32,168 bases of DNA from a virus: IMG/VR virus record IMGVR_UViG_3300028610_003763, positions 1-32,168 of that record. One strand, 5' to 3'. Of the stretch, positions 2,251 through 30,500 are shown one piece after another; within the stretch, counting starts at the first letter, position 1; the number at the start of each line of letters is the position of its first letter. The position numbers were made by a program, and so were the translations under genes. The notes beneath the pieces were generated by a model. It was not told the DNA's origin and did no database searches. It saw nothing but the letters and a program-made list of their open reading frames with translations.

Positions 2251-2541
2251 TTATTTTTTCTTTATTTTTTGTTGTCCAATTATTACAAATTGCAAGTTTT
2301 TTGGTTTCATGTTTGGTTCATGGTGAGATAAAATTAATCTCTCTATTTCTTTGGCTGCCTTTATTATTGGAGGCTTGCGTATAATCTGCCCAACTATTTT
2401 TACTGAATTTCTACAAATTGTATCAATAATTACTTGTTGATCTTCATTGTATGGTGGGTGATGTAATATTATTCTAACGTGTGGATATTTGAGCATACCA
2501 CTAATTATTTCCATGTGGTACAAAAATTCATCATTATCCAT
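2251..2541 (-). CDS. Hypothetical protein, 96 aa
   Basis: It starts with ATG at 2541 and ends in a Lys-rich tail, just beyond the right edge of the repeat array. The predicted protein mixes helices and strands and has several His residues (ILHHPP near 25, SHHEP near 72) but no motif I recognise. The gene lies 88 bp downstream of the 45-aa zinc gene and could be read from the same operator-controlled promoter. An AT-rich stretch upstream (AATTTGATAAATTT, minus strand) could also be a separate TATA box. No Cys pairs, signal peptide or membrane segment. Confidence 0.6.
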   Translation of the reverse strand: MDNDEFLYHMEIISGMLKYPHVRIILHHPPYNEDQQVIIDTICRNSVKIVGQIIRKPPIIKAAKEIERLILSHHEPNMKPKNLQFVIIGQQKIKKK

Positions 2542-2629: not shown

Positions 2630-2767
2630 TTATGCTCTTTCACCACATACTCCGCATTGTGGTCTGTCATGTTTTTTTCCTGCATTTAGATCTTTTCTGC
2701 TTGGATATTCATTATTGCATGGCTTTCCATTAATGGTCCCTTTACATTTGATCCAAGTGCCTTTCAT
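2630..2767 (-). CDS. Tiny zinc-ribbon-like protein, 45 aa
   Basis: The 45-codon frame runs from ATG at 2767 to TAA at 2630. It has single Cys residues at 8 and 17 (CKG... KPC) and a CGVC pair at 38-41, a plausible four-cysteine zinc site in a very small protein. It is the first gene of its operon. The inner palindromic operator ends on the base just before its ATG, so the transcript is probably leaderless. This promoter context is the strongest evidence that such a short frame is real. Function unknown. Confidence 0.6.
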   Translation of the reverse strand: MKGTWIKCKGTINGKPCNNEYPSRKDLNAGKKHDRPQCGVCGERA

Positions 2768-2811
2768 GGTTATTTTATAACCAGATATAATATAAGGGTT
2801 ATTTTATAACC
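2768..2811 (-). promoter_or_regulatory. Dual-palindrome promoter 1 (operators 2768-2782 and 2797-2811)
   Basis: Two perfect copies of GGTTAT-TTT-ATAACC lie 29 bp apart. The TATA-like segment between them reads CTTATATTATATC on the minus strand. The inner copy abuts the ATG at 2767. A protein bound here would cover both the BRE side and the transcription start, a layout typical of archaeal repression. The same layout recurs at 4752-4795 and 6727-6771. Confidence 0.85.
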
Positions 2812-2879
2812 TATACATATTGTATCCTCGATAATTTATTTTTTAATTATATTACAAGTAAAATTACAGAAAATTTGAA

Positions 2880-3005
2880 TTAATCTTTATTCTCTGTTTT
2901 AGGAATTTTTATCACATGTTCATTTTCTTTGTGTCCCTCAGGTAAACCACAATAAAAAATAGAATTGATATGTAATACCCAAAACTTGCATAATTTTTCA
3001 GTCAT
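2880..3005 (-). CDS. Hypothetical protein, 41 aa
   Basis: A short frame from ATG at 3005 to TAA at 2880. Its start overlaps the stop of the upstream 40-aa gene in an ATGA arrangement, the coupling seen throughout this block, and that is the main support. The product has two Cys (positions 6 and 19) and a His-rich, Lys/Glu-rich C-terminal half. No family recognised. It appears to be the last gene of the operon starting at 4751. Confidence 0.5.
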   Translation of the reverse strand: MTEKLCKFWVLHINSIFYCGLPEGHKENEHVIKIPKTENKD

Positions 3006-3124
3006 TTTATTATCCCTATACTTCGTAAGAGTATACATGTTGCGCATTTACAATTACTTGTAATAGCATACAACATTGCAGCTTTGAATTCTTGCGAATC
3101 TTTAACGTCGTTTGACTGGCTCAT
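3002..3124 (-). CDS. Hypothetical Cys-containing protein, 40 aa
   Basis: ATG at 3124 lies inside the last codons of the upstream secreted-protein gene (23 bp overlap), and the stop overlaps the next ATG as ATGA. The C-terminal half has CKCATC (residues 25-30), a possible metal-binding knuckle, followed by a short hydrophobic stretch. Support is mainly the tight overlaps on both sides. Function unknown. Confidence 0.5.
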   Translation of the reverse strand: MSQSNDVKDSQEFKAAMLYAITSNCKCATCILLRSIGIIK

Positions 3125-3671
3125 TTTTTAATTCCATATTATCCAATTCTGGATGATCACGTAACCATTCTAAATCCCAAGTGTAAAATGCTTTTGTTGC
3201 TCTCTTAATTGATCTACAATAACCTTTATCATCAACCCAACGCTCATCCTCATCACATGGAGTGCCATCAGGTTGAATTTTGTAGTAATTCAGTGCACGA
3301 TTAACTAGATCACTTTGTCTTAGATATTTACCTGGATTTTTTTTGACTTCTTCTTCTGAATCTATAATGCCTTGAAGTGCATTTATTCTATTATCTATTT
3401 TATTATTTAATGAATTTAATTCTGGAATGATTTCCAAATTTTCTCCTTGTGAAATTGTTTTTTTAGTCTTTTTTAGAGAAGAAATTTCATCTTGTATTTT
3501 ATCCATGAATACAACTTTAACTTTTTGTTGATGTTTAGAATAGTTTTGATCATTTGATGTCTTTTTGCTAAAATCAAACCAACAAAAAATAGACCAACAA
3601 TTATCATTATCTGCAAAGGCTGCAGACATTGGAATCATCATTATAATGAGAAATAATATAAAATACTTCAT
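3102..3671 (-). CDS. Secreted protein with coiled-coil-like middle, 189 aa
   Basis: Residues 1-20 form a clear signal peptide (KYFILFLIIMMIPMSAAFA), so the product is exported or tethered outside the cytoplasmic membrane. The middle (about 45-110) is charged and helical. The C-terminal part has a Cys pair (C139, C152) in PDGTPCDEDERWVDDKGYC, possibly a disulfide. It starts inside the stop region of the preceding secreted-protein gene (4 bp overlap), so the two are translated together and may act together at the cell surface. No homologous family recognised. A role in host-surface modification or exclusion of other viruses is only a guess. Confidence 0.72.
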   Translation of the reverse strand: MKYFILFLIIMMIPMSAAFADNDNCWSIFCWFDFSKKTSNDQNYSKHQQKVKVVFMDKIQDEISSLKKTKKTISQGENLEIIPELNSLNNKIDNRINALQGIIDSEEEVKKNPGKYLRQSDLVNRALNYYKIQPDGTPCDEDERWVDDKGYCRSIKRATKAFYTWDLEWLRDHPELDNMELKNEPVKRR

Positions 3672-4468
3672 TTTTCTTCAAATCCGTCTACAATATATGA
3701 ATTTGATACATTATTTGATACATCAAATGTATTTACATTTAGAACATTTCTATTTAATGAATCCTCATTTGTATAATTAAACTCCACATACAAATTCATA
3801 CAATCCTCGTTATGACATGGAATTATTTTATTACTCCATGAAATTATATTTATTTCATCGGACTTTATTATTTTATCAATTTCATTATCCCAACCAAAAT
3901 GAAACTCTACTAAACCAAAGCCATCATTTACACTATAATATATTGGCTGTTTTACTATTGAGAACTGTATAACATCTATATGATTTACCCTTGATTCAAA
4001 GACTGTCATGTTTAGTGACAATGATTTAGTCATATCTAGCTCTGGTGGGGAAACCAAATACAACATATCATAATACGTATAATTTAATTCGTATTGCTCA
4101 AATATTGGCGGTGTACAATCATCACATGAACTTTTTTTAGTAACTTTTTCTGTTGTATCCTCAATTGTATCAATAATTACATCATCTACTGTATCAACTA
4201 TGCATGCGCCTTCTGTATCGTCATGACCTAAATGTACAGTCAAGTTTGTTACCCATCTATCCTCACCCTCATGACATACCAATACTTCAACTATTACTAC
4301 ATCAGAGCATGAACCCAGTGGATCATCATGATCTAAATGTCGTTGTAATTTTGGGCCAGTTACATCCTTGTCTTTACCATTATGACACACAATTTCTCCA
4401 TATGCATCAACAGAAAACGTTGAAAATATTATTCCACTGATTAAAAGTAAAATAAATAATTTATTCAA
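3668..4468 (-). CDS. Secreted protein with two CH-x-G...HLxHDD...C repeats, 266 aa
   Basis: Signal peptide at residues 1-23 (MNKLFILLLISGIIFSTFSV). Two adjacent copies of one motif follow: C28-H29-N-G, then HLDHDDPLGSC (44-54); and C65-H66-E-G, then HLGHDDTEGAC (79-89). The Cys, His and Asp spacing is conserved in both, suggesting a small metal-binding or disulfide module. I have seen the pattern CHxG...HLxHGDxxGxC in secreted bacterial and archaeal proteins of unknown function. An acidic linker (90-112), CDDC (115-118) and a beta-rich C-terminal domain follow. There is no obvious C-terminal membrane anchor. Start and stop overlap the neighbours by 4 bp. A surface or extracellular role is inferred. 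Confidence 0.72.
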   Translation of the reverse strand: MNKLFILLLISGIIFSTFSVDAYGEIVCHNGKDKDVTGPKLQRHLDHDDPLGSCSDVVIVEVLVCHEGEDRWVTNLTVHLGHDDTEGACIVDTVDDVIIDTIEDTTEKVTKKSSCDDCTPPIFEQYELNYTYYDMLYLVSPPELDMTKSLSLNMTVFESRVNHIDVIQFSIVKQPIYYSVNDGFGLVEFHFGWDNEIDKIIKSDEINIISWSNKIIPCHNEDCMNLYVEFNYTNEDSLNRNVLNVNTFDVSNNVSNSYIVDGFEEK

Positions 4469-4707
4469 GCTGTTTGTGCCTCCAGCTTTTTTGCTTTTCT
4501 AATTGAGGTATTGATGCGCTTTATTTGCAAAGAAAAAGGGACTTTGTAAAATCCCAAATCTTCGCATACATGTTCAGCACTATCTTCAATGACTTGTTCT
4601 AATATGATTCTGTACTCACAACAGTCATTTGCACCTAAAAAACATCGGTCACATAGAGGAGCCATAACTCGGGCGTTTTTGTTGCCACAACATCTACAAG
4701 TTGACAT
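4465..4707 (-). CDS. Small Cys-rich zinc protein, 80 aa
   Basis: The N-terminal third carries CRCC (4-7), CDRC (19-22) and CC (29-30), enough ligands for one or two zinc ions. The rest is a basic helical tail ending KKLEAQTA. It starts with ATG in a TAATG overlap with the stop of a 14-codon leader and overlaps the next gene by 4 bp. A nucleic-acid-binding or protein-binding adaptor would fit, but no family is recognised. Confidence 0.7.
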   Translation of the reverse strand: MSTCRCCGNKNARVMAPLCDRCFLGANDCCEYRIILEQVIEDSAEHVCEDLGFYKVPFSLQIKRINTSIRKAKKLEAQTA

Positions 4708-4751
4708 TAGTTGCCCATTCCTATTTCTTTTGTTTGTTGTTTTATTTTCAT
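4707..4751 (-). CDS. 14-aa leader minicistron
   Basis: MKIKQQTKEIGMGN, from ATG at 4751 to a TAA that overlaps the next ATG (TAATG). The inner operator ends on the base before this ATG, so a leaderless transcript would begin with this frame. Translation of the zinc gene would then depend on termination and reinitiation. Similar minicistrons head two fibre operons near 24.5 and 32.0 kb. Confidence 0.5.
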   Translation of the reverse strand: MKIKQQTKEIGMGN

Positions 4752-4795
4752 GGTTATCCTATAACCTGCTATAATATTAAGGTTATGATATAACC
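4752..4795 (-). promoter_or_regulatory. Dual-palindrome promoter 2 (operators 4752-4766 and 4781-4795)
   Basis: GGTTAT-CCT-ATAACC and GGTTAT-GAT-ATAACC, 29 bp apart. The AT-rich segment between them reads TTAATATTATAGCA on the minus strand. The half-sites are identical to promoter 1 while the 3-bp centres differ, which points to selection on the half-sites. It drives the leftward operon 4751 to 2880. Confidence 0.85.
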
Positions 4796-4818
4796 CTTAG
4801 TTAAATATAAATAAATTA

Positions 4819-4986
4819 TTACTCGTTAGCTTTATCAAAACAATATTCACAAATAGAATTTTCATTTAAATAATCTGTAGGCACCTCACGTTTGCATTTT
4901 TTGCATTTATCCCAAGAACAATTTTTAGCTGAACAATTATCATGAATAATATTATTTCTTAAACAAAGTGGGTGAGGTTCTGACAT
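4819..4986 (-). CDS. Small double zinc-knuckle protein, 55 aa
   Basis: The frame runs from ATG at 4986 to TAA at 4819 and is the last gene of the operon that starts at 6726. Cys residues at 8, 18, 23, 28, 31, 46 and 49 include CKKC (28-31) and CEYC (46-49), which together form a typical four-Cys ribbon. The gene ends just before the second operator pair. Function unknown. Confidence 0.6.
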   Translation of the reverse strand: MSEPHPLCLRNNIIHDNCSAKNCSWDKCKKCKREVPTDYLNENSICEYCFDKANE

Positions 4987-4992
4987 TATTTT

Positions 4993-5175
4993 TTATTCCT
5001 CATCATTTACATTTTGCATTGCATTTGAAACTTTGGTTATTATATTTTCAATATCATTTAATATTTCTGGACCGATTTCATACAATGAATGTTTTATTAA
5101 ATCAACGTTGTTTGTTTGGGCATCAAATAGCTTGTTTCTCAATTCTGAGAGTTGATTAAATAATATCTCATCCAT
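4993..5175 (-). CDS. Small acidic helical protein, 60 aa
   Basis: ATG at 5175 overlaps the upstream stop (TAATG). The product is almost entirely helical and acidic, ending NVNDEE, with no Cys, signal or membrane segment. It could be a small protein-binding or anti-host factor, the usual content of such viral blocks, but no family is recognised. Confidence 0.6.
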   Translation of the reverse strand: MDEILFNQLSELRNKLFDAQTNNVDLIKHSLYEIGPEILNDIENIITKVSNAMQNVNDEE

Positions 5176-5504
5176 TATTTCATTTCCTCTAACATTTCCT
5201 CAAAGTATTTACTAGCTTGGATTAATTCAGTATGTGTAAATATCTTTGAATATTTTGGAATTTGTTTTCCTTTTGGCAAATATTTCCCATCAATACCACC
5301 TTTAATTCTTATTTGTTTTTCATCATTTTCCAAATAAATAATCACTACAAATTTCTTTTTTCTAGCTGTATCAATAAAGGCACTTTGGCCCTCATTTGAA
5401 AAACCCATTGAGGTTGTTACATTCCATCCCTCTTTTTCTAAAAAATCATGTATTGCAGATTCAATGCTCAATGAATCCCATTTTAATTCAAGATCAAATA
5501 TCAT
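5175..5504 (-). CDS. Hypothetical alpha/beta protein, 109 aa
   Basis: Residues 10-60 look like a helix followed by a beta-meander: SIESAIHDFLEKEGW, a strand pair, then KKKFVVIIYLE. The layout reminded me of small restriction-endonuclease-like folds (helix, E/D..., VVIIYLE), but no D-ExK catalytic set can be assigned with confidence. The C-terminal helix is acidic (KYFEEMLEEMK). TAATG overlaps both neighbours. Function unknown. Confidence 0.62.
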   Translation of the reverse strand: MIFDLELKWDSLSIESAIHDFLEKEGWNVTTSMGFSNEGQSAFIDTARKKKFVVIIYLENDEKQIRIKGGIDGKYLPKGKQIPKYSKIFTHTELIQASKYFEEMLEEMK

Positions 5505-5635
5505 TAGTTATGCTTCTCCAAGTATTCTGTTAGTGCATTGAGACTATGACATCTCTCAGTACAAAAATCCAAAAATCCTAAAATAAAGGATTTTTTGCAT
5601 TGCTGACAAATTTTGTCATTGACTTGGTGAGACAT
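5504..5635 (-). CDS. Tiny zinc-finger-like protein, 43 aa
   Basis: It fills the gap between two larger operon genes, with TAATG overlaps at both ends (ATG at 5635, TAA at 5504). Ligands are C10, C13 (ICQQC) and C25, C29, H30 (CTERCH), a CxxC...CxxxCH arrangement close to FCS/MYM-like zinc fingers. The perfect fit into the overlap chain is strong support that it is translated. Confidence 0.65.
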   Translation of the reverse strand: MSHQVNDKICQQCKKSFILGFLDFCTERCHSLNALTEYLEKHN

Positions 5636-5847
5636 TATTCATCCTCATCCATTGAAATGTTTTCAGGACTATTGATAATTGTATCAAGTGAGTAACCACA
5701 TATACAAATTATAGCATTATCAATTGCCTTTTTTTGTGTTGCAGTAGCTATTTCATATAATGCTTCAAGCTGTTCACTTTGTTTGAATGGGTCTTCATTG
5801 TCTTTACTCATTAGAGTAAAAATTGTTGTAATGGTATTGTCAAACAT
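5635..5847 (-). CDS. Hypothetical protein, 70 aa
   Basis: TAATG overlaps at both ends place it inside the operon. It is mostly helical, with one CICGYS segment near residue 49 and an acidic C-terminus (ISMDEDE). No family recognised. Confidence 0.6.
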   Translation of the reverse strand: MFDNTITTIFTLMSKDNEDPFKQSEQLEALYEIATATQKKAIDNAIICICGYSLDTIINSPENISMDEDE

Positions 5848-6278
5848 TAGTTGCCAAGCTCCTGAATAACTCTGTCTGCAACCATTTCAATCCAATGATC
5901 CAATTTCTCACTTACACCTTTGCTCAAAAACTCTGAACTATTATATCTCACCAAATGGAGTTTTTTTACTAGTTCTGTGTTTGGCATTGCCATTCCTTGT
6001 CTTAACACATCAATTTGATTATGTGTTATTTCATCAGATTGACCATATTTTGTATATGTCTTGACTGATTCCATTTGATTAGCCAAGCTTATTTTTTCCC
6101 AAATCCATCTAAAATTATCGAGTCGAATTTCTAATTCAGGTCGTTTTTCATATTCATGAAGTGCTTCAGCTTTTGCCACTTGTCTGTCTTGGTAGGTATC
6201 AAAAAAATCACCAAAGTTTTGATATAATGAACTGGCAATATCTGAGAGTTCTATTGTACTAAATACACTAACTGACAT
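5847..6278 (-). CDS. Hypothetical helical protein, 143 aa
   Basis: The largest soluble protein of this operon, rich in Glu, Leu and aromatic residues and predicted all-helical, with no cysteine, signal peptide or membrane segment. Starts and stops overlap the neighbours (TAATG). I see no catalytic motif. Its size and the conserved operon order would make it the best query for finding related viruses. Confidence 0.65.
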   Translation of the reverse strand: MSVSVFSTIELSDIASSLYQNFGDFFDTYQDRQVAKAEALHEYEKRPELEIRLDNFRWIWEKISLANQMESVKTYTKYGQSDEITHNQIDVLRQGMAMPNTELVKKLHLVRYNSSEFLSKGVSEKLDHWIEMVADRVIQELGN

Positions 6279-6616
6279 TAGTTAATTTCTCCGCTTAAAG
6301 GTCTGTGCCAGTGTCCAAACTCTTCAATGTTTTCAATATATTCAGGTAGGACCTCAATATTGTTTTGATTGACACATTTCAAACAAATCCAATGTGATTC
6401 AACACCTGATCCAGCTTTTGGCATTACTAATGCTGTACTAGAACAAATTGAACATTTTTCATCATCATTAACAAATTGATTGATGCGTCTTAGTACTTCT
6501 TTGAATCCTGATAATTCACCTTTATGAAATTCAGAGTTAAAATCATTTGAATTATCTTCTCTGTTTTTAATGGCTTTTTCTAACTCAGCTTTGAGTTGTA
6601 TTACACTAATCACCAT
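6278..6616 (-). CDS. Zinc-ribbon protein with N-terminal helical region, 112 aa
   Basis: Residues 1-50 are helical and charged. A classic ribbon follows: CSIC (55-58) and CLKC (78-81) about 20 residues apart. A GHWHRPLSGE tail follows. The ATG at 6616 overlaps the stop of the upstream 38-aa gene, and the stop overlaps the next ATG. DNA binding is plausible for such a ribbon, but the family is not recognised. Confidence 0.68.
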   Translation of the reverse strand: MVISVIQLKAELEKAIKNREDNSNDFNSEFHKGELSGFKEVLRRINQFVNDDEKCSICSSTALVMPKAGSGVESHWICLKCVNQNNIEVLPEYIENIEEFGHWHRPLSGEIN

Positions 6617-6726
6617 TTTAATTTCTCTCCATCATACATCTTTTCAATACTTTCTTCAATCTCTTGCATTGCATTATTTACAAAATTGCCTTGCGTTGAA
6701 TTGTTTTCGCTTTGTGTTCTTGTCAT
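6610..6726 (-). CDS. First gene of the leftward operon, 38 aa
   Basis: A short frame from ATG at 6726 to TGA at 6610, overlapping the next start by 7 bp. It is Asn/Gln-rich at the N-terminus and has an acidic helix, with no motif. The inner operator of promoter 3 lies immediately upstream of this ATG, as at the other two operator promoters. It may act mainly as a leader that couples translation of the zinc-ribbon gene. Confidence 0.58.
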   Translation of the reverse strand: MTRTQSENNSTQGNFVNNAMQEIEESIEKMYDGEKLKW

Positions 6727-6771
6727 GGTTATACTATAACCCTTGCATTATAATAAGGTTATGTCATAACC
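6727..6771 (-). promoter_or_regulatory. Dual-palindrome promoter 3 (operators 6727-6741 and 6757-6771)
   Basis: GGTTAT-ACT-ATAACC and GGTTAT-GTC-ATAACC are 30 bp apart and enclose TTATTATAATGCAAG (minus strand). It drives the eight-gene leftward operon 6726 to 4819. Half-sites are the same as in promoters 1 and 2. Confidence 0.85.
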
Positions 6772-6993: not shown

Positions 6994-7134
6994 TCAATTA
7001 ACTAGAGTCTTTGATTTGAACATTAGTTTATGATGTTTACAGATATAGAGTAATTCATGTATAACACCGCATCCACAATCTCTAACAAATCCCTCATGAA
7101 ATCTGATCGGCCTTTGTGGTTTATTCAATGACAT
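6994..7134 (-). CDS. Small Cys/His protein, 46 aa
   Basis: ATG at 7134, TGA at 6996-6994. It carries CGC (20-22), C32 and HH (34-35), spaced like a small zinc site (CxC...CxHH). There is no overlap with neighbours and no clear promoter. Composition resembles the other mini-proteins of the window. Function unknown. Confidence 0.42.
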   Translation of the reverse strand: MSLNKPQRPIRFHEGFVRDCGCGVIHELLYICKHHKLMFKSKTLVN

Positions 7135-7139
7135 GTTTT

Positions 7140-7460
7140 CTTTACTGCCTAACATGCATTATCTATTATTCATTATGTCATAAACTAGACGTTTGGCACG
7201 TTTGACAGCTGTTTAACCCCATCCCCCCCTATACCCTTTAGGGCCGTCTGACCCTATAGGTCCTTTCATGTTTAAGATTAAAAACATGGAACATCTACGC
7301 ATAATTCTATTAATCATTGTAAAGCAATGGCTGACTGTAATTGAATGCAATAAAAAAGGAGTGTCATAAGGTAAGGGACTCCTAACGCACATCACACACC
7401 CCCTCCCACAAACGGATTAAAATTGAAGGTACCTACAGTATACCCTTTGATAATCCTCTT
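7140..7460. other. Gene-poor control region with G-quadruplex motif and hairpins
   Basis: No convincing gene for about 320 bp. At 7217-7236 the minus strand reads four G-runs of at least three (GGG-TATA-GGG-G-GGG-AT-GGGG), a full G-quadruplex motif in an AT-rich genome. Overlapping it are a CCC-TTTA-GGG hairpin (7234-7243) and arms CCTATA/TATAGG (7228-7233 and 7255-7260). A second C-rich run lies near 7399-7407. It sits near the divergence of the leftward operons from rightward genes, a usual place for an origin or control centre. Confidence 0.55.
7268..7369 (+). CDS. Possible 33-aa hydrophobic peptide
   Basis: The frame MFKIKN, MEHLRIILLIIVKQWL and a short polar tail give one amphipathic or membrane helix with a basic N-terminus. 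No promoter, ribosome site or overlapping gene supports it. It may be chance in the control region. Confidence 0.2.
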   Translation: MFKIKNMEHLRIILLIIVKQWLTVIECNKKGVS

Positions 7461-7500
7461 TGGTACCATACGATAACTTTTTGAAATTAAAGGCCCCTAG
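7461..7500 (+). promoter_or_regulatory. TGGTACCATA element, copy 1, with CCCTAGGT tail
   Basis: TGGTACCATA is followed by an ACTTTTTGAAATT segment and CCCCTAGGT. The element closely matches the copy at 8815-8857, including the tail. There is no gene directly downstream; the non-coding RNA candidate begins about 70 bp further on. Confidence 0.55.
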
Positions 7501-7569
7501 GTATGTAACTAGATTTACTATGTTAGGTACATACCGAAATTTTAAATAATCTTAAGATAGTATCTAAAG

Positions 7570-7644
7570 GTAGCCATCCCACTGGCGAGCCTGCAAAGCT
7601 TGTTAGATATTATCTGACAGAAACCAGTGAGATGACTGTTTTTT
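7570..7644 (+). ncRNA. Candidate structured non-coding RNA with T-run terminator
   Basis: A TATA-like TTTAAATAAT (7541-7550) predicts a start near 7570. The outer stem pairs CATCCCACTGG (7575-7585) with CCAGTGAGATG (7624-7634): ten pairs and one C/A mismatch, extended by A7572-T7637 and G7573-C7636. Inside is a hairpin with a 3-nt loop, GTTAGAT-ATT-ATCTGAC (7602-7618), containing one G-U pair. T6 at 7639-7644 follows directly. It lacks the cloverleaf and CCA features of tRNA, and I could not fit clear C/D or H/ACA boxes. A viral regulatory RNA is the best reading. Confidence 0.6.
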
Positions 7645-7747
7645 ATTATTAATAACTAGTATTTAATATTCGATATTTTCTTATTAATTTTTTAAATTAA
7701 AGTTAATCAAAAAATATTGATTTTTTTTAAAAGGGTAGATAATTTAA
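7645..7747. other. AT-rich spacer
   Basis: Very AT-rich sequence with A/T runs between the RNA candidate and the convergent 52-aa gene. No gene or repeat is seen. Confidence 0.5.
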
Positions 7748-7906
7748 TTATAATCCAGGTGGAGGATCATTTTTCATAGCATCACCTAAAGCGTTACCTA
7801 TCTCACCCCAGTTAATAGATTTTACATTGTCTTTATGTAATACTGTAGTTTCTATTTTACCATCGTCATTAGTTTCTACTGTTACTTTTTGTATTGTTTT
7901 TACCAT
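7748..7906 (-). CDS. Small acidic protein, 52 aa
   Basis: ATG at 7906, TAA at 7748. The N-terminal 25 residues alternate in beta pattern (TIQKVTVETNDDGKIETTVL). An amphipathic helix (NWGEIGNALGDAMKND) and a PPPGL end follow. No motif is recognised. Its start codon region (ACCATATAGG) resembles the nearby GGTACCATA element, possibly by chance. Confidence 0.5.
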   Translation of the reverse strand: MVKTIQKVTVETNDDGKIETTVLHKDNVKSINWGEIGNALGDAMKNDPPPGL

Positions 7907-7964
7907 ATAGGCCAATTATTTTTTTAAATTTAGGTATTATTCTTTAATTAAAATTAAATCAACT

Positions 7965-8012: not shown

Positions 8013-8189
8013 ATGGTTGCTAAAATTATTACTTTTACTGGAAATGCCGTAAAGGATAAAGATTCATGGTTTTGTCGAAAATGTGGGAAAAAATTAAAGT
8101 TGAATACAAAGATAGCATCAAAAAAATCAAAAGCAAACAATACACGCCATTATCATATACTATGTGCAAAGAAAGTTAATTTGCTTTAA
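8013..8189 (+). CDS. Small zinc-finger protein, 58 aa
   Basis: A beta-like start (MVAKIITFTG) is followed by CRKC (21-24), a Lys-rich segment, then H-Y-H (46-48) and C51, giving a CxxC...HxH..C ligand set. The basic character favours nucleic-acid binding. The TGGTACCATA promoter lies at the right distance upstream. An overlapping ATG at 8009 gives only four codons before a stop. Confidence 0.6.
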   Translation: MVAKIITFTGNAVKDKDSWFCRKCGKKLKLNTKIASKKSKANNTRHYHILCAKKVNLL

Positions 8190-8857: not shown

Positions 8858-8919
8858 TAACATATGCACTTGTTTACTGTCGAGTGATTTTTAAGTAAAA
8901 ATAATATTGATATTTTTAA

Positions 8920-9233
8920 TGGATTCTGATCTAAATGTAATAGTGTGGTTATTACTTATTGCAGGATTAATCATATCTACAATATTCACGAGTATTGCAA
9001 TTTACGATTATACAGTAAGGGCGGAACACAATGAAACTGTAAGAAATAATAATATTATACAAAATTGTATACCAAATGAAAACTACAAGAACTATGCAAT
9101 AGAAATTATTACAAACAAAACACATTCATTTCAGCCACAGACATGCAAGTGGTTATTAATTCAGGATTCCATTAAAGGTGTAGATGTGGAATCATGGACA
9201 GAATCTCTAAAAAATTCATGGATTAAAGATTAA
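8920..9233 (+). CDS. Small single-pass membrane protein, 104 aa
   Basis: I choose ATG 8920 (MDSDLNVIVWLL) over the upstream in-frame ATG at 8907 because a TATA-like box lies about 28 bp before it and leaderless starts dominate here. Residues 6-31 form a membrane helix. The remaining 70 residues are polar, with two Cys (near 49 and 76) that could form an external disulfide. It resembles the 168-aa neighbour in layout, so both may be surface proteins. Confidence 0.6.
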
Positions 9234-9255
9234 TTAAAAATTAAACACCCTATTA

Positions 9256-11581: not shown

Positions 11582-11944
11582 TTATTTTGTATACTTTTCT
11601 TTTAGTGTCTTGTAGATTGCAATCTCTGCTTGTTTCTTTGTTCTGAATCTTTGAAAATCCAAATGACCACATGCCTCATAGTGATGTCCTAAGAATCTGC
11701 CGTCTTTTAATGTAAACTCTAAACCGTGATTAATTCTTGCTAGTCCTACTTTGCCATTTTTATTTTCATAATAATAATACCATTTGCCAAGCATTGGTGG
11801 GAGTTTTTCATAAAACTCATCTCTTACCTTTTTTGGAAGTTTTGCCATCTCTTTCCACAAGTGATGCATTATCCGAGTCTCTTTCATGATTTTTTCAACG
11901 ATATAAACTATTTCAGAATTGGTTTGATGGTTATTGAATCTCAA
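11582..11944 (-). CDS. Hypothetical protein, 120 aa
   Basis: It faces away from the 221-aa gene, with only 30 bp between the two starts, so their promoters must overlap or one start is further in (Met20 is an alternative). The N-terminal half is helical and basic; the second half is strand-rich with Tyr/Gly (GKWYYYYENKNGKVGLARIN) and an FRTKKQAEIAIYKTLKE helix. It may be a small nucleic-acid-binding fold. No family recognised. Confidence 0.6.
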   Translation of the reverse strand: MRFNNHQTNSEIVYIVEKIMKETRIMHHLWKEMAKLPKKVRDEFYEKLPPMLGKWYYYYENKNGKVGLARINHGLEFTLKDGRFLGHHYEACGHLDFQRFRTKKQAEIAIYKTLKEKYTK

Positions 11945-13106: not shown

Positions 13107-14912
13107 TCAATGATTCTTGAACCTAAATTTCTTGTTTACTCTGATTTTAGATATTTGAAATCCTTCAGGATCATATTTTGTTTTTCCAATCATACAATAT
13201 ATGATACTCATAACAGTATCCTTTGGATGATTCCATTCTTTTTTTGCCTTTTGTCTTGGGTCCTCTTTTGCAATTTCTTCATTGTTTTTATCCAAATCCT
13301 TTCGTGTAATATCACAAAAATCATCAAGCAAAAAATCACACTCCCAATCATTTTTCATTGGAATAATTAACTGCGGTGCTGGCTTGCCTGCCTCATCAGG
13401 TACAGTACTACCAACAAAATCCACAAAGTTTTGAATTATCTGACTCTTATCTACTGAATAGTGTTCTTTTTTCTCACCGATAGTTGGTGCATCAATTACG
13501 TCCTGATTTTTGTGTCGCATAGTTTCTTGTGTAATGTTTCCTGATGTCCAGCATCCCTTGACGCTGCCACGTCCAAGACCTGTAACTTTCTCACCAAAGG
13601 ATGTGTAACCTCCGTTTTGCATCATAGTTACCTTGTCTTTTCCATAACCCAAATCAGCTACACAAAAGTCACAACAGTATTGCTTGAAAATTTCCACAAA
13701 GTGGGCTGCCTGATCATACTCGTGCTCCATTGGTCTTGAATCAACAAATGCAATCTGATAGCGGTTAGTCTTTCTCCAGTAAATTATTACAGTGCCAACT
13801 GTTTTAGAAGCTGCTGGTCCTGAACCCCAATCGATTCCAAGAAATATTAGAATCTGATTGCCGTATTGTTTTTTTAAATCACCAATCTCTTTTGGAGTAA
13901 GTAATGCTTTGGTATAATCATAACATGCCTCAACCATTTCAGGAGTTATCGGTCTTCTCATTGCCTTAAAGAAATTCCCATAAACGTGAGCTTGCACAAT
14001 ACTTTTTGGATTGTACTTTTCTTGAAACTCTATGGAATTTTCAGGTCTTGTCTTGTAAAGATTAACTGCATCATGGATTGTTAATGGAATTCTTGCAAAG
14101 ATTGTCTGAGGCATGTGGTATCCCCTGTATTCATTGTTTTCTGGTTTTTGTGCAACCCATTTTCCTGACACAATATTTTCTGGATGCTCATTTTTCAGAT
14201 ACCCATCATCATCAAATCGTAATTTCTCTCGCCAGTTCTTATCATCAAATGTCCATTCTCTCTGATCTGATCTTTTCCACAACTTGTACCATTCAGAACC
14301 AGCCTCACCACCAATTCCTAAATAGTAGCACTGCCCCTTTGTCTGGGTCATAGAGTATAGTGCTGCTGCTCTAAACTGTAATTCCTGATATTGGCATTCA
14401 TCATATACCATCAGCCAGTTAGTCATTCCTTGGACGTTATTGTACTCATTCTCATCAGTTCTAACATACACTACAGAGTTGTTTGTAAGATTGATTTCTC
14501 CAACATTTGCTCGTCCATGCATTAAAAATGGCGTAAGCAAATCATTTCGCAGCATTGTATCTTTACGAAATCTCTGCTTGGACCAAGCAGAAACACGGTC
14601 TTCTCTATCTACGATATACGTTACCTCTACATTATCATGAGATGTGGCATAACATCCAATGATGTCAGTTCCAAATGTTGATTTGAAAGTCTGTCTTCCA
14701 TTAACTATAACAATATTTGGTGACTTGTCTTTGTATACATCAACCCAAAAAGGCTCCCACTCAAAGTTACGTTTTACATTACCAACATATGGTCTGGCTT
14801 TTTTTATCCATTCTAAATTATCAGTTGGCAGTTGTGGTGTTAGTAATTTTTTTTTAGATGGCGTTACAACTTTTTCTGCATCTTCTAATTTTCTCTCAAA
14901 AGATGATGACAC
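13107..14912 (-). CDS. terL: Terminase large subunit (TerL), 601 aa
   Basis: The motor that packages DNA into the capsid through the portal. The ATPase domain has Walker A GRQTFKST (72-79) and Walker B WLMVYDECQ (166-174, D171/E172), with a coupling-motif candidate around SMTQTKG (187-193). The nuclease domain (RNase H-like) shows its acidic residues in LGIDWGSG (D361), CVADLGYG (D420) and NHPKDTVMS (D565). GTG start, 2 nt after the stop of the small upstream gene. Length is normal for TerL. It is on the minus strand, opposite to portal and capsid genes, which is uncommon in head-tailed viruses. Cys- and Arg-rich differences from bacterial TerLs suggest a divergent archaeal branch. Confidence 0.95.
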   Translation of the reverse strand: MSSSFERKLEDAEKVVTPSKKKLLTPQLPTDNLEWIKKARPYVGNVKRNFEWEPFWVDVYKDKSPNIVIVNGRQTFKSTFGTDIIGCYATSHDNVEVTYIVDREDRVSAWSKQRFRKDTMLRNDLLTPFLMHGRANVGEINLTNNSVVYVRTDENEYNNVQGMTNWLMVYDECQYQELQFRAAALYSMTQTKGQCYYLGIGGEAGSEWYKLWKRSDQREWTFDDKNWREKLRFDDDGYLKNEHPENIVSGKWVAQKPENNEYRGYHMPQTIFARIPLTIHDAVNLYKTRPENSIEFQEKYNPKSIVQAHVYGNFFKAMRRPITPEMVEACYDYTKALLTPKEIGDLKKQYGNQILIFLGIDWGSGPAASKTVGTVIIYWRKTNRYQIAFVDSRPMEHEYDQAAHFVEIFKQYCCDFCVADLGYGKDKVTMMQNGGYTSFGEKVTGLGRGSVKGCWTSGNITQETMRHKNQDVIDAPTIGEKKEHYSVDKSQIIQNFVDFVGSTVPDEAGKPAPQLIIPMKNDWECDFLLDDFCDITRKDLDKNNEEIAKEDPRQKAKKEWNHPKDTVMSIIYCMIGKTKYDPEGFQISKIRVNKKFRFKNH

Positions 14913-14913
14913 A

Positions 14914-15189
14914 TTATTTACCCCATACTATTGGTTTGTCTTTTGAATTATTTTCTAGCTTCTTTTCAATTTCTGCTAGTCTCTTTTCATGATCATAAGC
15001 TTTTGCAAGTCCTGCATGAACTTGTGCCATGTATCCCATAGAACCTGAAATCTTACTAAGGTCTGAAATTTTTTCTTTTGAAACATCTTCACCTTTTATG
15101 TAATCATCAAAAAGTTTCTTGTATGCTAGAAAAACTTCACCAACACTTTTGTACATTTTTTCTGTAGTGTTTGAATTCGAATCGCTCAA
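14914..15189 (-). CDS. Probable terminase small subunit, 91 aa
   Basis: TTG start at 15189, exactly 33 nt after a minus-strand AATACCTTTA box, matching the late-promoter spacing. The protein is helical: a polar N-tail, a middle part (VGEVFLAYKKLFDDYIKGED) and a C-terminal coiled coil (HEKRLAEIEKKLENN). It lies immediately before terL, the classical place of TerS, and coiled coils are usual in TerS oligomers. No clear helix-turn-helix is seen, so the call rests mostly on position. Confidence 0.6.
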   Translation of the reverse strand: MSDSNSNTTEKMYKSVGEVFLAYKKLFDDYIKGEDVSKEKISDLSKISGSMGYMAQVHAGLAKAYDHEKRLAEIEKKLENNSKDKPIVWGK

Positions 15190-22114: not shown

Positions 22115-22329
22115 TCTTTTTAAAATTTTAATTTAAAAATTATTTTTTTACAAATATTTTTTTGCATAAATTCTTTTTCATAAATAATTTCTTTGTATAA
22201 ATTATTTTTTTACACATAAATTTTTTTATTTTTTTTATTTTTGAAATAAATATTATACAATATTTTATTAAAGGTATTTTCAAATTTTTTTGTTTTTATT
22301 TTTTTTTAGAAAAAATTATTTTTTGTAAA
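22115..22329. terminator. T-rich multi-tract terminator region
   Basis: About 215 bp of nearly pure A/T with at least seven T-runs of five or more on the plus strand. Several runs form loose repeats (T6-7 followed by RCATAAAT). Archaeal RNA polymerase terminates at T-runs, so this should separate the scaffold and capsid transcripts. A reversed late box (AATACCTTTAAT on the minus strand, from 22278) lies inside, with no convincing gene behind it. Confidence 0.65.
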
Positions 22330-24889: not shown

Positions 24890-26838
24890 TGTCAGCCAGA
24901 TGGTCAGCTAAGGGAGAAAAGAGCACAGCAGTTGATGACGATGAATTAATGATGATAGATTCAGAAGATAATACTCCTTCAACTACAAATAAACGAGTAA
25001 AGTATTCTACACTAAACACAAATGTAAATGACTTTACAATGGGTGGTGAATTTTTACAAAACGCAGGTGATCCAACACTTGCAGGTACTACTTCGGGTGA
25101 TGTACGACTTGCTGCTGCTCATGGTTTGTATGTTGTAGGTGATTATGCGTATGTGGCATCTAATACAAATAATAGATTAACAGTTGTTAATATTACAAAT
25201 CCATCAAATCCAGTAATAGTTGGTTCTATTGCAGATGGTACAAATCTTTTAGGTGCTGCTGGAACTTTTGTTGTAGGACAATACGCTTATGTTGTATCAA
25301 ATACTAATCACCGTCTTACAATAATTGATATTTCAGATCCTTCATCACCATCTTTTGTAAGTTCAATAGCTGATATGACAAACATGAATGGTCCTAACTG
25401 TGTTTATGTTGCAGGAAAATACGCATATGTGGCATCAGGTGGTAATGATTCTTTATCAGTTTATAATATTACAGATCCTAATAATATTACCTTTGTAGAT
25501 GTTATAGAAAGTAATTTAGATCTTGATGGTGCTTTTGATGTTTATGTTACAGGTAATTACGCATATGTATCAGGTAATTCTGGTAAATCCATAGCAGTAG
25601 TTGATGTAACTGATCCTACAAATATGAGTATAACAGATGCTATAGTAGCTGATAATGATCTTGATGGTGCTGCTGGAATTCATGTTGGAGGCAGATACGC
25701 ATACGTTGCATCTCAAACTGCTGATTCTTTAACAATAATTGATGTTAAAGATCCTAATGATATACTCAAAGTTTCATCAATAACAGATACTAGACTTAAC
25801 GGTGCTCGAGGAGTATTTCTTGCAGGACGATATGCCTATGTTGCAGCAGCAGATGCAGACAGTGTTACAGTAGTTGATGTTACTGATCCTGCAGATATGA
25901 TAATTGTTGGAAGTTTACAAGATTTTTCTGCTCTTGAAACACCTTTTGATGTTTTTGTTGCAGGAAAATATGCATACACTGCAGCTTTTACAGGTGATCA
26001 ATTAACTGTTCTTAGTGTTACAGGAATAGATTCACCAACTGGAAATATTGGAAATATGGAAGGTGGACATTTAACAATTAGAGATAATGCTGTAATTAAA
26101 AATGATTTGCAAGCAGGAACTCTCAATGTTGGAAAAGATGCTCTAGTTAGTAATGACTTGGCAGTTAGTAATGATTTAACAGTTGTTAATGACTTGGCAG
26201 TTGGTAATGATTTAACAGTTGGTAATGATTTAACAGTTTCTGGTAATGCTAGTATTGTTGGCACACTTGATATGAATTCGAGTTTAATTAACAATGTAAC
26301 TGATCCTGTTTCTGCACAAGATGCTGCTACAAAAAATTATGTTGATGGTGCAGATACTACACCTGCTCATATATCCGTGGCTTTAGATCAAGATATCGTA
26401 ACGCCTGACACTTCTGATATTACTGTTACTGGAAGTGCTGGTGATTATACTGATTTTACAGGTTTTGGAGCTGGTGCTTTTGAGACAGTTGATGCAGGTA
26501 GTGGTACATTAAATTTTTCATTATCTGATGATACTATTGGTCAAGTAACTTATAATGGAACCCCTACGATTAAAGTCTCAATTAACTATATGGTAACTTT
26601 TGGTGGTACAACACTTGGAGATTTATTGGGTTTGCTAGTTGTAAAAAATTCTAGTGTAATAGATAATTCTTTTGTTTTTGCTGATACTTCTGTTGCATCT
26701 CAGAAAGTCACTCTTTCAGGAAGTATTATTATTAGTCTAGCTAATGCTGATACTTTGAAATTACAAACAACAAATTACAACAGTACTGGTGCTATGAAGA
26801 TGTACTCTATGCAAATGTCAGTTACTTCTGTTTCTTAA
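24889..26838 (+). CDS. Fibre protein: N-terminal anchor, seven-bladed LVIVD propeller, C-terminal beta head, 649 aa
   Basis: Residues 1-45 (SAKGEKSTAVDDDELMMIDS, then TNKRVKYSTL) are an anchor segment shared with the two following fibres. Residues about 75-385 contain seven YAYVAS blades with LTVVNITNPSNP-type ends, a LVIVD/choice-of-anchor beta-propeller. Residues 415-450 have hexapeptide steps (SNDLAVSNDLTVVNDLAVGN), a beta-helix stem built on 18-bp DNA repeats. TDPVSAQDAATKNYVD (about 470-485) is the phage fibre motif found before receptor-binding heads. The last ~150 residues form a beta-sandwich-like head. A host-recognition fibre is likely; ATG is in a TAATG overlap with the previous gene. 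Confidence 0.8.
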   Translation: MSARWSAKGEKSTAVDDDELMMIDSEDNTPSTTNKRVKYSTLNTNVNDFTMGGEFLQNAGDPTLAGTTSGDVRLAAAHGLYVVGDYAYVASNTNNRLTVVNITNPSNPVIVGSIADGTNLLGAAGTFVVGQYAYVVSNTNHRLTIIDISDPSSPSFVSSIADMTNMNGPNCVYVAGKYAYVASGGNDSLSVYNITDPNNITFVDVIESNLDLDGAFDVYVTGNYAYVSGNSGKSIAVVDVTDPTNMSITDAIVADNDLDGAAGIHVGGRYAYVASQTADSLTIIDVKDPNDILKVSSITDTRLNGARGVFLAGRYAYVAAADADSVTVVDVTDPADMIIVGSLQDFSALETPFDVFVAGKYAYTAAFTGDQLTVLSVTGIDSPTGNIGNMEGGHLTIRDNAVIKNDLQAGTLNVGKDALVSNDLAVSNDLTVVNDLAVGNDLTVGNDLTVSGNASIVGTLDMNSSLINNVTDPVSAQDAATKNYVDGADTTPAHISVALDQDIVTPDTSDITVTGSAGDYTDFTGFGAGAFETVDAGSGTLNFSLSDDTIGQVTYNGTPTIKVSINYMVTFGGTTLGDLLGLLVVKNSSVIDNSFVFADTSVASQKVTLSGSIIISLANADTLKLQTTNYNSTGAMKMYSMQMSVTSVS

Positions 26839-26921: not shown

Positions 26922-27509
26922 TTGACTTCATCTATTTATCCACTTACAGCAACTACATCAGTTACAGTTGCATCTATAACTGTAGGTGCGGGGGGGTCTG
27001 GATACACTTCTCCACCAACTGTTACAATAGATGCGCCTCCTAGTGGTACAACTGCAACAGCTACTGCAACTCTTTCTGGAGATGCTGTTGATACTATTAT
27101 TGTTAATGATCCAGGAAGTGGATATACTACAGTACCTACTGTTACTATTACTGGAGGAGGTGGCTCTGGTGCTACTGCCACTGCTGTTCTTAGTACTATC
27201 GTAACTTCTAATGATATTTTATCATCTGATATTCCAATTACTAATGATCATGTGTCTCCTGGGGGTGGAGGAATATTGAGATTGTTATTTGGATTTGAAT
27301 TTGCTGCATCTACTGCAGAAGTTTCAGTTTTTAATAATGATGCTCTTAAAGGCACCCTTAATTCAGATAATTCCAATGAAATAGTTACTGATGGTTATTA
27401 TAGATTTGATATTGATGTAGAAGCTGGAGATAATATCAATTTAACAGCTAGTCAAAATATTTCTACGGTTCGTTTTTTGAGGGCACATCTAGTTCAGTTT
27501 GGAGCATAA
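26922..27509 (+). CDS. Fibre/adhesin protein with GYxxPTVT repeats, 195 aa
   Basis: TTG start set by the promoter box. Residues 18-95 hold two GSGYTxxPTVTI units followed by Ala/Thr runs (GATATAV), the same module that interrupts the propeller of the 15564 product. It is a known short beta module of phage and bacterial surface proteins. Residues 105-195 form a beta-rich C-terminal domain ([20 protein letters not shown]...[18 protein letters not shown]), similar in style to the head of the previous fibre. Probably a short fibre or chaperone-like head. Confidence 0.7.
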
Positions 27510-27570: not shown

Positions 27571-30500
27571 ATGGCATTAATTCCTTGGAGTGATAAAGGT
27601 CTTAAAGGAATTCCCATAGATGCTGATCAATTATTAATAATAGATACTGAAGATAATAATGACAACAAAAGAATTACACTTGGAAGTTTGCCCAGTGCTG
27701 CTCTTCCAGTTCCTGACACTACTTCAATAGTTGAGGGAAGTTCTGATTCTAGTAAACAATTAAGATTTGAGGTTGATGGATTTTCTGGTTCAATTATACG
27801 CGTTCTTACGCCACCAGATGCTGATGGTGTTATAGTTTTACAAAATTTTACACAAACACTAACAAGCAAAACCATAAACCTTACCAGCAATACATTAACT
27901 GGAACTGCTGCTCAATTTAATTTAGCACTAAGTGATGATACTTTTGCTTTTACATCAGATAATCTTTCAGTATTTGCATCAACCACATCTGCTCAATTAG
28001 CTGGTATAATTTCTGATGAGACAGGTTCTGGTCTTTTGGTATTTAATAATTCACCAACTCTGATAACTCCTGCACTTGGTACACCAGCATCAGGAATCTT
28101 GACAAATACGACAGGTCTGCCCGTATCTGGATTAGCTGATGGTACAACTGGAGAACTAATAACTTGGGATGCCACTAATGACGCAGCTACTGTATCAAGT
28201 GGAACAGCAGGACAAGTCTTAACGTCAAATGGTTCATTATTACCACCTACATTCCAATTAGCAGCTGGCTCTCAAACTCCATGGACATCTAACATTGATG
28301 CTGCAGGATTTAATTTACAAAATGTTGGATTACTTAATCTAAAAATTGATGGTGCTACTGCAGTTTTAGAATTAGAAGCAAACCATGCGGTACCAAATAG
28401 TCAAATTATTGGTCAGTTAGATTACATTGATGATAACAGTGTTGGAACTAGAATAATTTATGGGCAAATTCAAGTTCTAATTGAAACACCAACTTCTGGC
28501 AGTGAAGATGGTGAGATGTTTTTTAATGTAATGAAAAGTGGAGTATTAACTGATTTCATTAAAATTAATGAAGCAAATGATGGCGTAGTATCATTTGGTA
28601 GTGATGTTGATACAAGTAATAATGATTTAAAATTGGGTACTGGTGAACTTTTCTTTACAACTCCTAACACTAACATTCACGAAACAACAAATGATATTGA
28701 AATTGATGTTGGTAATAGTGATTCAGTTAGAATACGAATTGGTACTGGTTCACCTATGACTGAATATGAATTTGATGATGCACAAGCAGATTTCCAAAAT
28801 AACAAACTAGCAAATGTAAATCCAACTACAATTACAGAATTCACAACAGTTACAGCAGCTGCTGGTGACTTTGTTTGGATAATAGATGCAGATGATGGAT
28901 TAAGTAAGAAAGTAAATGCTTCAGACTTTCTAAGTGGTGCTTCTCAAACCCCATGGACATCTGACATTGATGCTGCAGGATTTGATTTACTAAATGTTGG
29001 TGGAATACAAATTAACAACCCAGCTGACACATTCCAATATATTATTACTCCATCAGCAATTATAGCTGATAGAATAGCTACTATCCCATTACTAACAGGA
29101 AATGATACATTTGTCTTTGAAGCATTTGCACAAACATTAACAAATAAAACAATTACAGCTGCTGGTAATGACATTACAATAGCATCAACTGATTTATCAG
29201 ATAGTGCCATAATTGCAAGAAATACAAATATTCTATCATTCTTTTCTGCTACTACTTCTGCCCAATTAGCTAGTGTAATTTCTGATGAAACAGGTTCAGG
29301 ACTTTTAGTATTTGGTACTTCTCCAACTTTAGTCACTCCAGCTCTTGGTACTCCATCAGCTCTTGTTCTTACTAACGCTACTGGACTCCCACTCACCACT
29401 GGTGTCACAGGTACATTAGCTACTACAAATGGTGGTACTGGATTATCTGCAATCGGTACATCACTTCAAGTTTTACGTGTAAATGCAGGTGCTACTGCGT
29501 TAGAATATGCCACCATTTCAGGTGGAGATATGGTGCTAGCCAATGCTCAAACCAACACAGGCATCAAAACATTTGAAGATACAACTATGAAACTTAGAAA
29601 TGTTGCAGATTCTTTTGATGGCTACTTTGTAAATACAAACACTGCTGATAGAGTTTACACATTACAAGATTCATCTGATGTGTTAGTTGGTAGAGATACA
29701 ACTGACACACTAACAAACAAAACACTAACCACACCAACAATTGGATCCTTTGTAAATGCTGGACATGACCATGCAGATGCTGCAAGTGGTGGTCAACTAA
29801 CTAATACTGCACTTACTAGTGGCGTATTTGGTTCTATCACAGGTGTAGGAATACAATCACAAGAACTCAATATGAATTCTAATAAAGTTACAAGTTTAGG
29901 TACACCAACTGCTTCAACTGATGCTACTACCAAAGCATACGTTGATGCAATTGCAGCAGGCCTTGAATGGAAGGAGGCAGCTTTGGCTGGTACTACTGGA
30001 GATATTACACTTACAAATTCACAGACTATTGATGGAGTTGCAGTAGTCAATCCTGATAGAGTATTAGTTAAAAATCAAAGTGATGCTGCTGAAAATGGTA
30101 TCTATGAAGTTGTAAATGCAGGGAATTGGACTAGAACTATTGATGCTAACACTGGTATTGAGTTAGAACATGCAACAATCTTTATTTCAGAAGGAACTAC
30201 TAATGCAGGTAAAGCATTCACTTGTACTTCAACTAATATTATACTAGATACAACTGATATTGATTGGGTAGAAATTTTTAGTACCGTTCTTGAAGCTGGG
30301 GATGGTTTAGTTGTTTCAGGAAATGTTATAGATGTTGGTGCTGGAACTGGAATTACAGTTAATACTGATGATGTAGCACTTACTATCCCTGTAGTTGTGT
30401 CTAGTGGAGGAACAGGTGCAACATCATTAACTGATGGTGGAATACTTTATGGAAATGGAACTAGTAACATTTTAGCTACTACAGCTCCTACAACCGGACA

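Follow-up and report, generated by a model that had tools for sequence, protein, structure and literature searches.

Twin palindromes and the gene runs behind them

The window analyzed here is the whole of a 32,168-nucleotide stretch of viral DNA (IMG/VR record IMGVR_UViG_3300028610_003763, positions 1 to 32,168), designated G000 where it is set beside the other virus records compared, which carry the remaining G numbers. A scan of the whole record for the 6-3-6 palindrome GGTTAT-N3-ATAACC returned exactly six matches, starting at positions 2768, 2797, 4752, 4781, 6727, and 6757 and arranged in three pairs; the nearest further match, at position 31125, had two mismatches. Along the minus strand, the order at each pair is outer site, AT-rich spacer of 14–15 bp, inner site, and ATG, and in all three the last base of the inner site directly precedes the ATG. 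The measured center-to-center distances were 29, 29, and 30 bp for promoters 1, 2, and 3, respectively. The half-sites are invariant and the central triplets vary (TTT, TTT, CCT, GAT, ACT, and GTC on the plus strand, by ascending position). The six perfect palindromes, their spacing of 29–30 bp around a TATA-like segment, and the variable centers thus agree with a preliminary description of this DNA. The features of the three promoters are as follows:

2768..2782, promoter 1, putative inner operator GGTTAT-TTT-ATAACC, ending one base before the ATG at 2767 (minus strand); sequence scan
2783..2796, minus strand, promoter 1, AT-rich TATA-like spacer, CTTATATTATATCT; sequence
2797..2811, promoter 1, putative outer operator, at the expected place of the B recognition element (BRE); sequence scan
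4752..4766, promoter 2, putative inner operator, ending one base before the ATG at 4751 (minus strand); sequence scan
4767..4780, minus strand, promoter 2, AT-rich spacer, TTAATATTATAGCA; sequence
4781..4795, promoter 2, putative outer operator; sequence scan
6727..6741, promoter 3, putative inner operator, ending one base before the ATG at 6726 (minus strand); sequence scan
6742..6756, minus strand, promoter 3, AT-rich spacer, TTATTATAATGCAAG; sequence
6757..6771, promoter 3, putative outer operator; sequence scan

The window repeats no 6-3-6 half-site other than GGTTAT. Among 100 dinucleotide-shuffled versions of it, the highest recurrence of any half-site was two, and the GGTTAT palindromes totaled one. 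The three spacers put a TATA-like box approximately 20–29 bases ahead of the ATG, a position that would suit a putative transcription start at the ATG (leaderless promoters); with such a start, the BRE position would fall on the second half of the outer site. Across the virus group, TATA-like words were enriched about twofold 26–35 bases before ATGs (59, against 26–30 per ten positions in three neighboring blocks), a weak profile taken over 485 mechanically chosen open reading frames (ORFs).

The following genes lie behind the pairs:

2630..2767, minus strand, Cys4 zinc-ribbon-like protein of 45 aa, the first gene after promoter 1
2251..2541, minus strand, 96-aa ORF, 88 bp beyond the zinc gene, with a homologue in G001 only, in convergent (opposite) orientation there
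2880..4751, minus strand, promoter 2 gene run of 14-, 80-, 266-, 189-, 40-, and 55-aa ORFs, abutting or overlapping
4819..6726, minus strand, promoter 3 gene run of 38-, 112-, 143-, 70-, 43-, 109-, 60-, and 55-aa ORFs

These small ORFs stand mostly end to end, eight behind 6726, six behind 4751, and one or two behind 2767, where the 96-aa ORF may be driven by its own promoter. The ATG of the middle pair (4751) opens a frame of just 14 codons, and its stop codon overlaps the start codon of the 80-aa gene. The three runs were counted at 16 ORFs, within the 14–16 small genes proposed earlier for the regulon. However, its extension to all leftward genes did not hold, as the leftward ORFs 6994–7155, 7748–7915, 11582–11944, 13107–14912 (terminase), and 14914–15189 have no site; the regulon would thus be the early region.

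Recurrence of the layout in related viruses

The major capsid protein (MCP) was used to search viral contigs, which yielded 39 loci. The exact palindrome was found in one of the 39 MCP-relative records, G001 (48 kb, capsid 90% identical), and was absent from the MCP relatives at 81–86% identity. In G001, a perfect pair precedes a 55-aa gene at 37844, and a second pair, the inner site of which shares the A of the ATG, precedes a PCNA-type sliding-clamp gene at 41964 that heads the sliding-clamp operon (Pfam PCNA_C match, E 6e-12). A one-mismatch inner site stands before the homologue of the 45-aa zinc protein at 43404. The site at 45488 (two mismatches) was not counted; it appears to be part of a repeat array beside a transposase-like gene. 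G024, the next near relative in which early-gene homologues occur, encodes a clamp 58% identical and has another pair of common promoter elements: its early promoters at 44386 and 47490 (locus L151), one of them that of the clamp gene, share TTATARTGSGTAACA...CTGATAC in place of the palindromes.

A general search for paired palindromes was carried out in 23 virus records (823,584 bases) and revealed 13 loci, against zero or one in each of five block shuffles. Block shuffles and resamplings were used here, as reversed-sequence controls are unsuited to palindromes, which reversal keeps. We also scored all records uniformly for two 6-3-6 sites ahead of an ATG (maximum 24), with 12 Markov resamplings of the whole 23-record set as the null. 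A score of at least 23 was reached by eight promoters in five of the 23 records, namely three in the window, two in G001, and one each in G040, G041, and G042. The resamplings gave none at this level, 0.08 per set at 22, 2.75 at 21, and 31 at 20. A G003 pair, GGTACGTTGTACC / GGTGTACAATGTACC (centers approximately 38 bp apart), and the AT-rich palindromes of G005 and G015 were excluded from the counts. The latter are repeated palindromes (ATACT...AGTAT, ATAGT...ACTAT) near gene starts, at 22186–22235 in G005 and 27463–27500 in G015, and perhaps represent another operator type.

The AT richness of the genome might invite the explanation that the palindromes are chance occurrences or RNA hairpins at the 5' end. 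This is very hard to credit, however, as neither shuffles nor resamplings reproduce the pairs, so that chance is numerically excluded, and the AT-rich box between the sites in every pair points to promoter DNA.

The layout thus recurs in four other records: two 6-3-6 palindromes of 15 bp, separated by about three helical turns, with an AT-rich box between them and the inner site by the ATG. The pairs read GGTTTTTTAAAAACC-13-GGTTGTAATAAAACC-ATG in G040, TGCTATAATATAGCA-19-TGCTATAATATAGC-ATG in G041, and TTGTATAAAATACAA-12-TTGTATATTATACAA-6-ATG in G042, and the half-sites across the five viruses are GGTTAT, GGTTTT, TGCTAT, and TTGTAT. With one odd letter in G040, the changes between viruses are symmetric within each site and common to both sites, which suggests a symmetric protein dimer with diverged specificity. 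In all five carriers, matches with at most one mismatch to the virus's own operator occur at promoters only. Two more pairs of score 21 in G041, mutually alike, precede the zinc gene (30125) and 38783, and their membership in the operator family is suggestive only. The same applies to a GGTCAT-like pair before the zinc operon of G015, which is only suggestive of an operator of this kind.

A single-site scan of viral contigs for GGTTAT-N3-ATAACC-ATG gave 88 stretches, judged to be largely chance because the twin scan left one. With degenerate letters, the twin scan gave nine matches: two were real (G001 and G040), and seven had poorer palindromes, six of those in apparent coding repeats. The exact twin was not found in archaeal contigs of the GTDB collection; the eight matches in that collection were all in metagenome-assembled genomes (MAGs) of Bacillota and look unrelated to the viral operators. 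In several Erysipelotrichaceae-type MAGs (L177–L184), the same 15-bp palindrome is paired within a divergent promoter region, next to a conserved gene that resembles a regulator, probably by convergence. Several of the Bacillota matches are flanked by what we take to be hemolysin-III-like and DUF1836-like regulator genes. A literature search found no description of the twin sites or of the 45-aa zinc protein.

Candidate regulators

The earlier remark that no helix-turn-helix (HTH) repressor is evident nearby was borne out: none was found in Pfam scans of 20 window proteins, or with the HTH_5 and ribbon-helix-helix (RHH) RHH_1 models over the record. The same two models had no match in G001 or G015, and RHH PF01402 had none in G000, G001, G015, G040, G041, or G042, records that may be fragments. 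No Lrp-type regulator appeared in Pfam scans of chosen proteins, with no Lrp model run over whole records. Such a lack of viral HTH and RHH genes would be expected if the sites were bound by a transcription factor of the host, such as a dimer of the Lrp, MarR, or ArsR type, which the virus used to time its early genes; 15-bp 6-3-6 palindromes are common among host winged-HTH dimers. The hosts may be ammonia-oxidizing archaea. We nevertheless regard a host factor as rather unlikely. Close relatives, with MCPs 81–86% identical, have no sites, and the exact twin occurs in no archaeal GTDB contig, so that a virus-borne regulator fits better than a host protein. In addition, viruses of the same layout differ in their half-sites; a constant layout with half-sites shifting in step is to be expected if each virus has its own version of a homologous regulator.

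Three zinc proteins of the window had previously been named as possible regulators, and the comparison weakened that proposal: the protein at 6278–6616 has a homologue (75%) in G024 and that at 8013–8189 has one in G005, both records without such sites, and for 4465–4707 no homologue was found in the relatives compared. The locus L217 proved to be a false zinc match.

The 45-aa protein at 2630–2767 appears to be the best single candidate, if a tentative one. In an all-against-all comparison, only one family, a 40–47-aa Cys4 protein, was common to G000, G001, G015, G040, G041, and G042. It is stand-alone in seven of the 23 records, G003 being the seventh. The gene of the zinc protein, or the operon it belongs to, itself carries a site or pair in G000, G001 (where there is only an inner site), G015, and G040. 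Pairs with a score of at least 23 occur in five of the seven zinc-positive records and in none of the 16 others (hypergeometric 21/33649 = 6e-4, by hand); counting G002 and G006 as carriers too gives five of nine against none of 14 (0.004). Longer proteins that join this zinc ribbon to a basic N-terminal region are encoded in G002 (8882–9253), G003 (29727–30083), and G006 (26037–26393), and this basic fusion suggests nucleic-acid binding. The window protein has the Cys4 pattern and gave a fairly confident AF2 model (pLDDT 85), the best VIA-align Z of which was 2.2, with no NrdR chain listed; no match below E 0.001 was found in the PDB or the viral fold library. As a tentative proposal, a zinc ribbon that stands alone in a protein of about 45 aa may represent a new class of self-regulating viral repressor, which would bind the paired palindromes on either side of the TATA box in leaderless archaeal promoters, with a half-site specificity split into immunity-like groups (GGTTAT, GGTTTT, TGCTAT, and TTGTAT) among related viruses.

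Several observations weigh against this assignment. G040–G042 were fetched via the zinc protein. G003, an MCP relative with the zinc protein, has no canonical pair, and the clean pairs of G041 and G042 lie kilobases away from the zinc gene. Moreover, zinc-protein similarity does not track the operators: G001 and G040 share 62% with different half-sites, and G000 and G001 share 54% with the same half-site. There is consequently an appreciable chance, short of an even one and about equal to that of the zinc protein, that the repressor is another viral protein, with an unrecognizable domain or encoded beyond the sequenced fragment, and that the zinc gene is a frequent passenger of the early region. 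The window and its relatives may be fragments from which an HTH repressor is missing, and G040 encodes an ArsR-like HTH protein. However, G040 is the only one of the five significant pair carriers with an HTH_5 match, and no further non-structural family is common to all carriers. The early ORF 2251–2541 is confined to the two GGTTAT viruses and was rejected as a repressor; its predicted fold is alpha/beta, not HTH (one of five models confident), with no PDB match below E 0.001.

Neighboring features

Outside the three runs, positions 1–993 of the window hold a gene with a weak, just-below-cutoff match to the IS110-type Transposase_20 model (E 5e-4). It is followed at approximately 1255–2240 by a long array of irregular units, ACGAGTCA-N10-TGAAACCCA. 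Homologues of this gene were found in G001, G006, G024, G032, and G040, and similar repeats adjoin the G001 copy. Copies of another promoter-like motif, GGTACCATAYAG or close to it, lie at 7462, 7966, 8230, 8816, and 10409 ahead of rightward genes, with an AT-rich box after the motif, and four copies of this type occur in G001 (36307–37184). The non-coding segment at approximately 7490–7650 includes a possible hairpin (CCACTGG...CCAGTGAGATG), spotted by eye, and may be a small RNA.

Proposed mechanism

Taken together, the sequence comparisons make it probable that this tailed virus, whose promoters are of the archaeal type, carries a dimeric repressor that has the pairs as its operators and acts on three leaderless early promoters. 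Bound to the outer site, one dimer would cover the BRE place and the TATA box at its upstream end, blocking TFB and TBP, and a dimer on the inner site would cover the transcription and translation starts. Both dimers would exclude TBP/TFB and RNA polymerase and shut the three gene runs together; the runs would open when little repressor is present, after entry or upon induction. The early region would then comprise genes for replication and host takeover, and the zinc protein, if it is the regulator, would limit its own synthesis. Of the preliminary interpretation, the operator-like twin sites, the three gene runs, and the lack of an HTH gene are retained, and the inclusion of all leftward genes and the three named zinc proteins are not.

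This interpretation has its own weak points. Operator binding, transcript starts, and the host are predicted or putative throughout, most center distances (27–30 bp) are slightly below three full turns, and the GGTCAT pair of G015 has a score of 20, which is noise by itself. The pairs might also be activator sites or start-site elements: positive control is conceivable, and the different motif GGTACCATAYAG upstream of rightward promoters is placed as an activator site might be. We consider this improbable, however, as the inner site lies over the start region and the outer site over the BRE position, which usually gives occlusion. As to whether repression would serve lysogeny or an early-to-late shut-off, a Phage_integrase match was found in one of the 23 records, G032.

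To our knowledge, gene control in tailed archaeal viruses outside thermophiles and halophiles is little explored, and our literature search found nothing on it. The results give a specific, testable regulon with defined operators, defined early operons (including the clamp gene in a relative), and a 45-aa candidate regulator. The diverged operators among the viruses form a natural series for studying specificity and superinfection immunity.

Comparison with known systems

F55 of SSV1 is a small viral protein with two sites on each of the promoters T5, T6, and Tind, overlapping the transcription start site and the BRE, and represses early genes and its own gene (PMC5569661). The window promoters are alike in having two sites per early promoter, over the BRE and a start that is itself predicted. 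However, F55 is an RHH protein that binds tandem direct repeats ATAGATAG (PMC5569661), whereas the window sites are inverted 6-3-6 repeats and no RHH gene was found. Stf76 of pSSVx and its homologue ORF80 have two 15-nt sites (TTAA-N7-TTAA) in their own promoter, one over the BRE; unlike the arrangement described here, Stf76 is a winged-HTH protein and its sites are 60 bp apart (PMC4027180).

Bacterial NrdR is a zinc-ribbon repressor that binds a pair of 16-bp palindromes three turns apart, with 15–16 bp between them, over the promoter, both boxes being needed; it carries an ATP-cone and regulates ribonucleotide reductase genes (PMC12051234). The likeness is in the box-pair layout only, a palindrome pair overlapping the promoter; the proposed repressor, if it is the candidate zinc protein, could be likened to the zinc ribbons of NrdR minus the ATP-cone. 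In contrast to NrdR, the viral sites are 15 bp long, with spacers of 12–15 or 19 bp, and most pairs are a few bp closer. The 45-aa viral protein had no NrdR match up to E 10 and no ATP-cone match. The viral pairs, if they function as proposed, would therefore resemble F55 in mechanism and NrdR in layout and would be a member of neither system.

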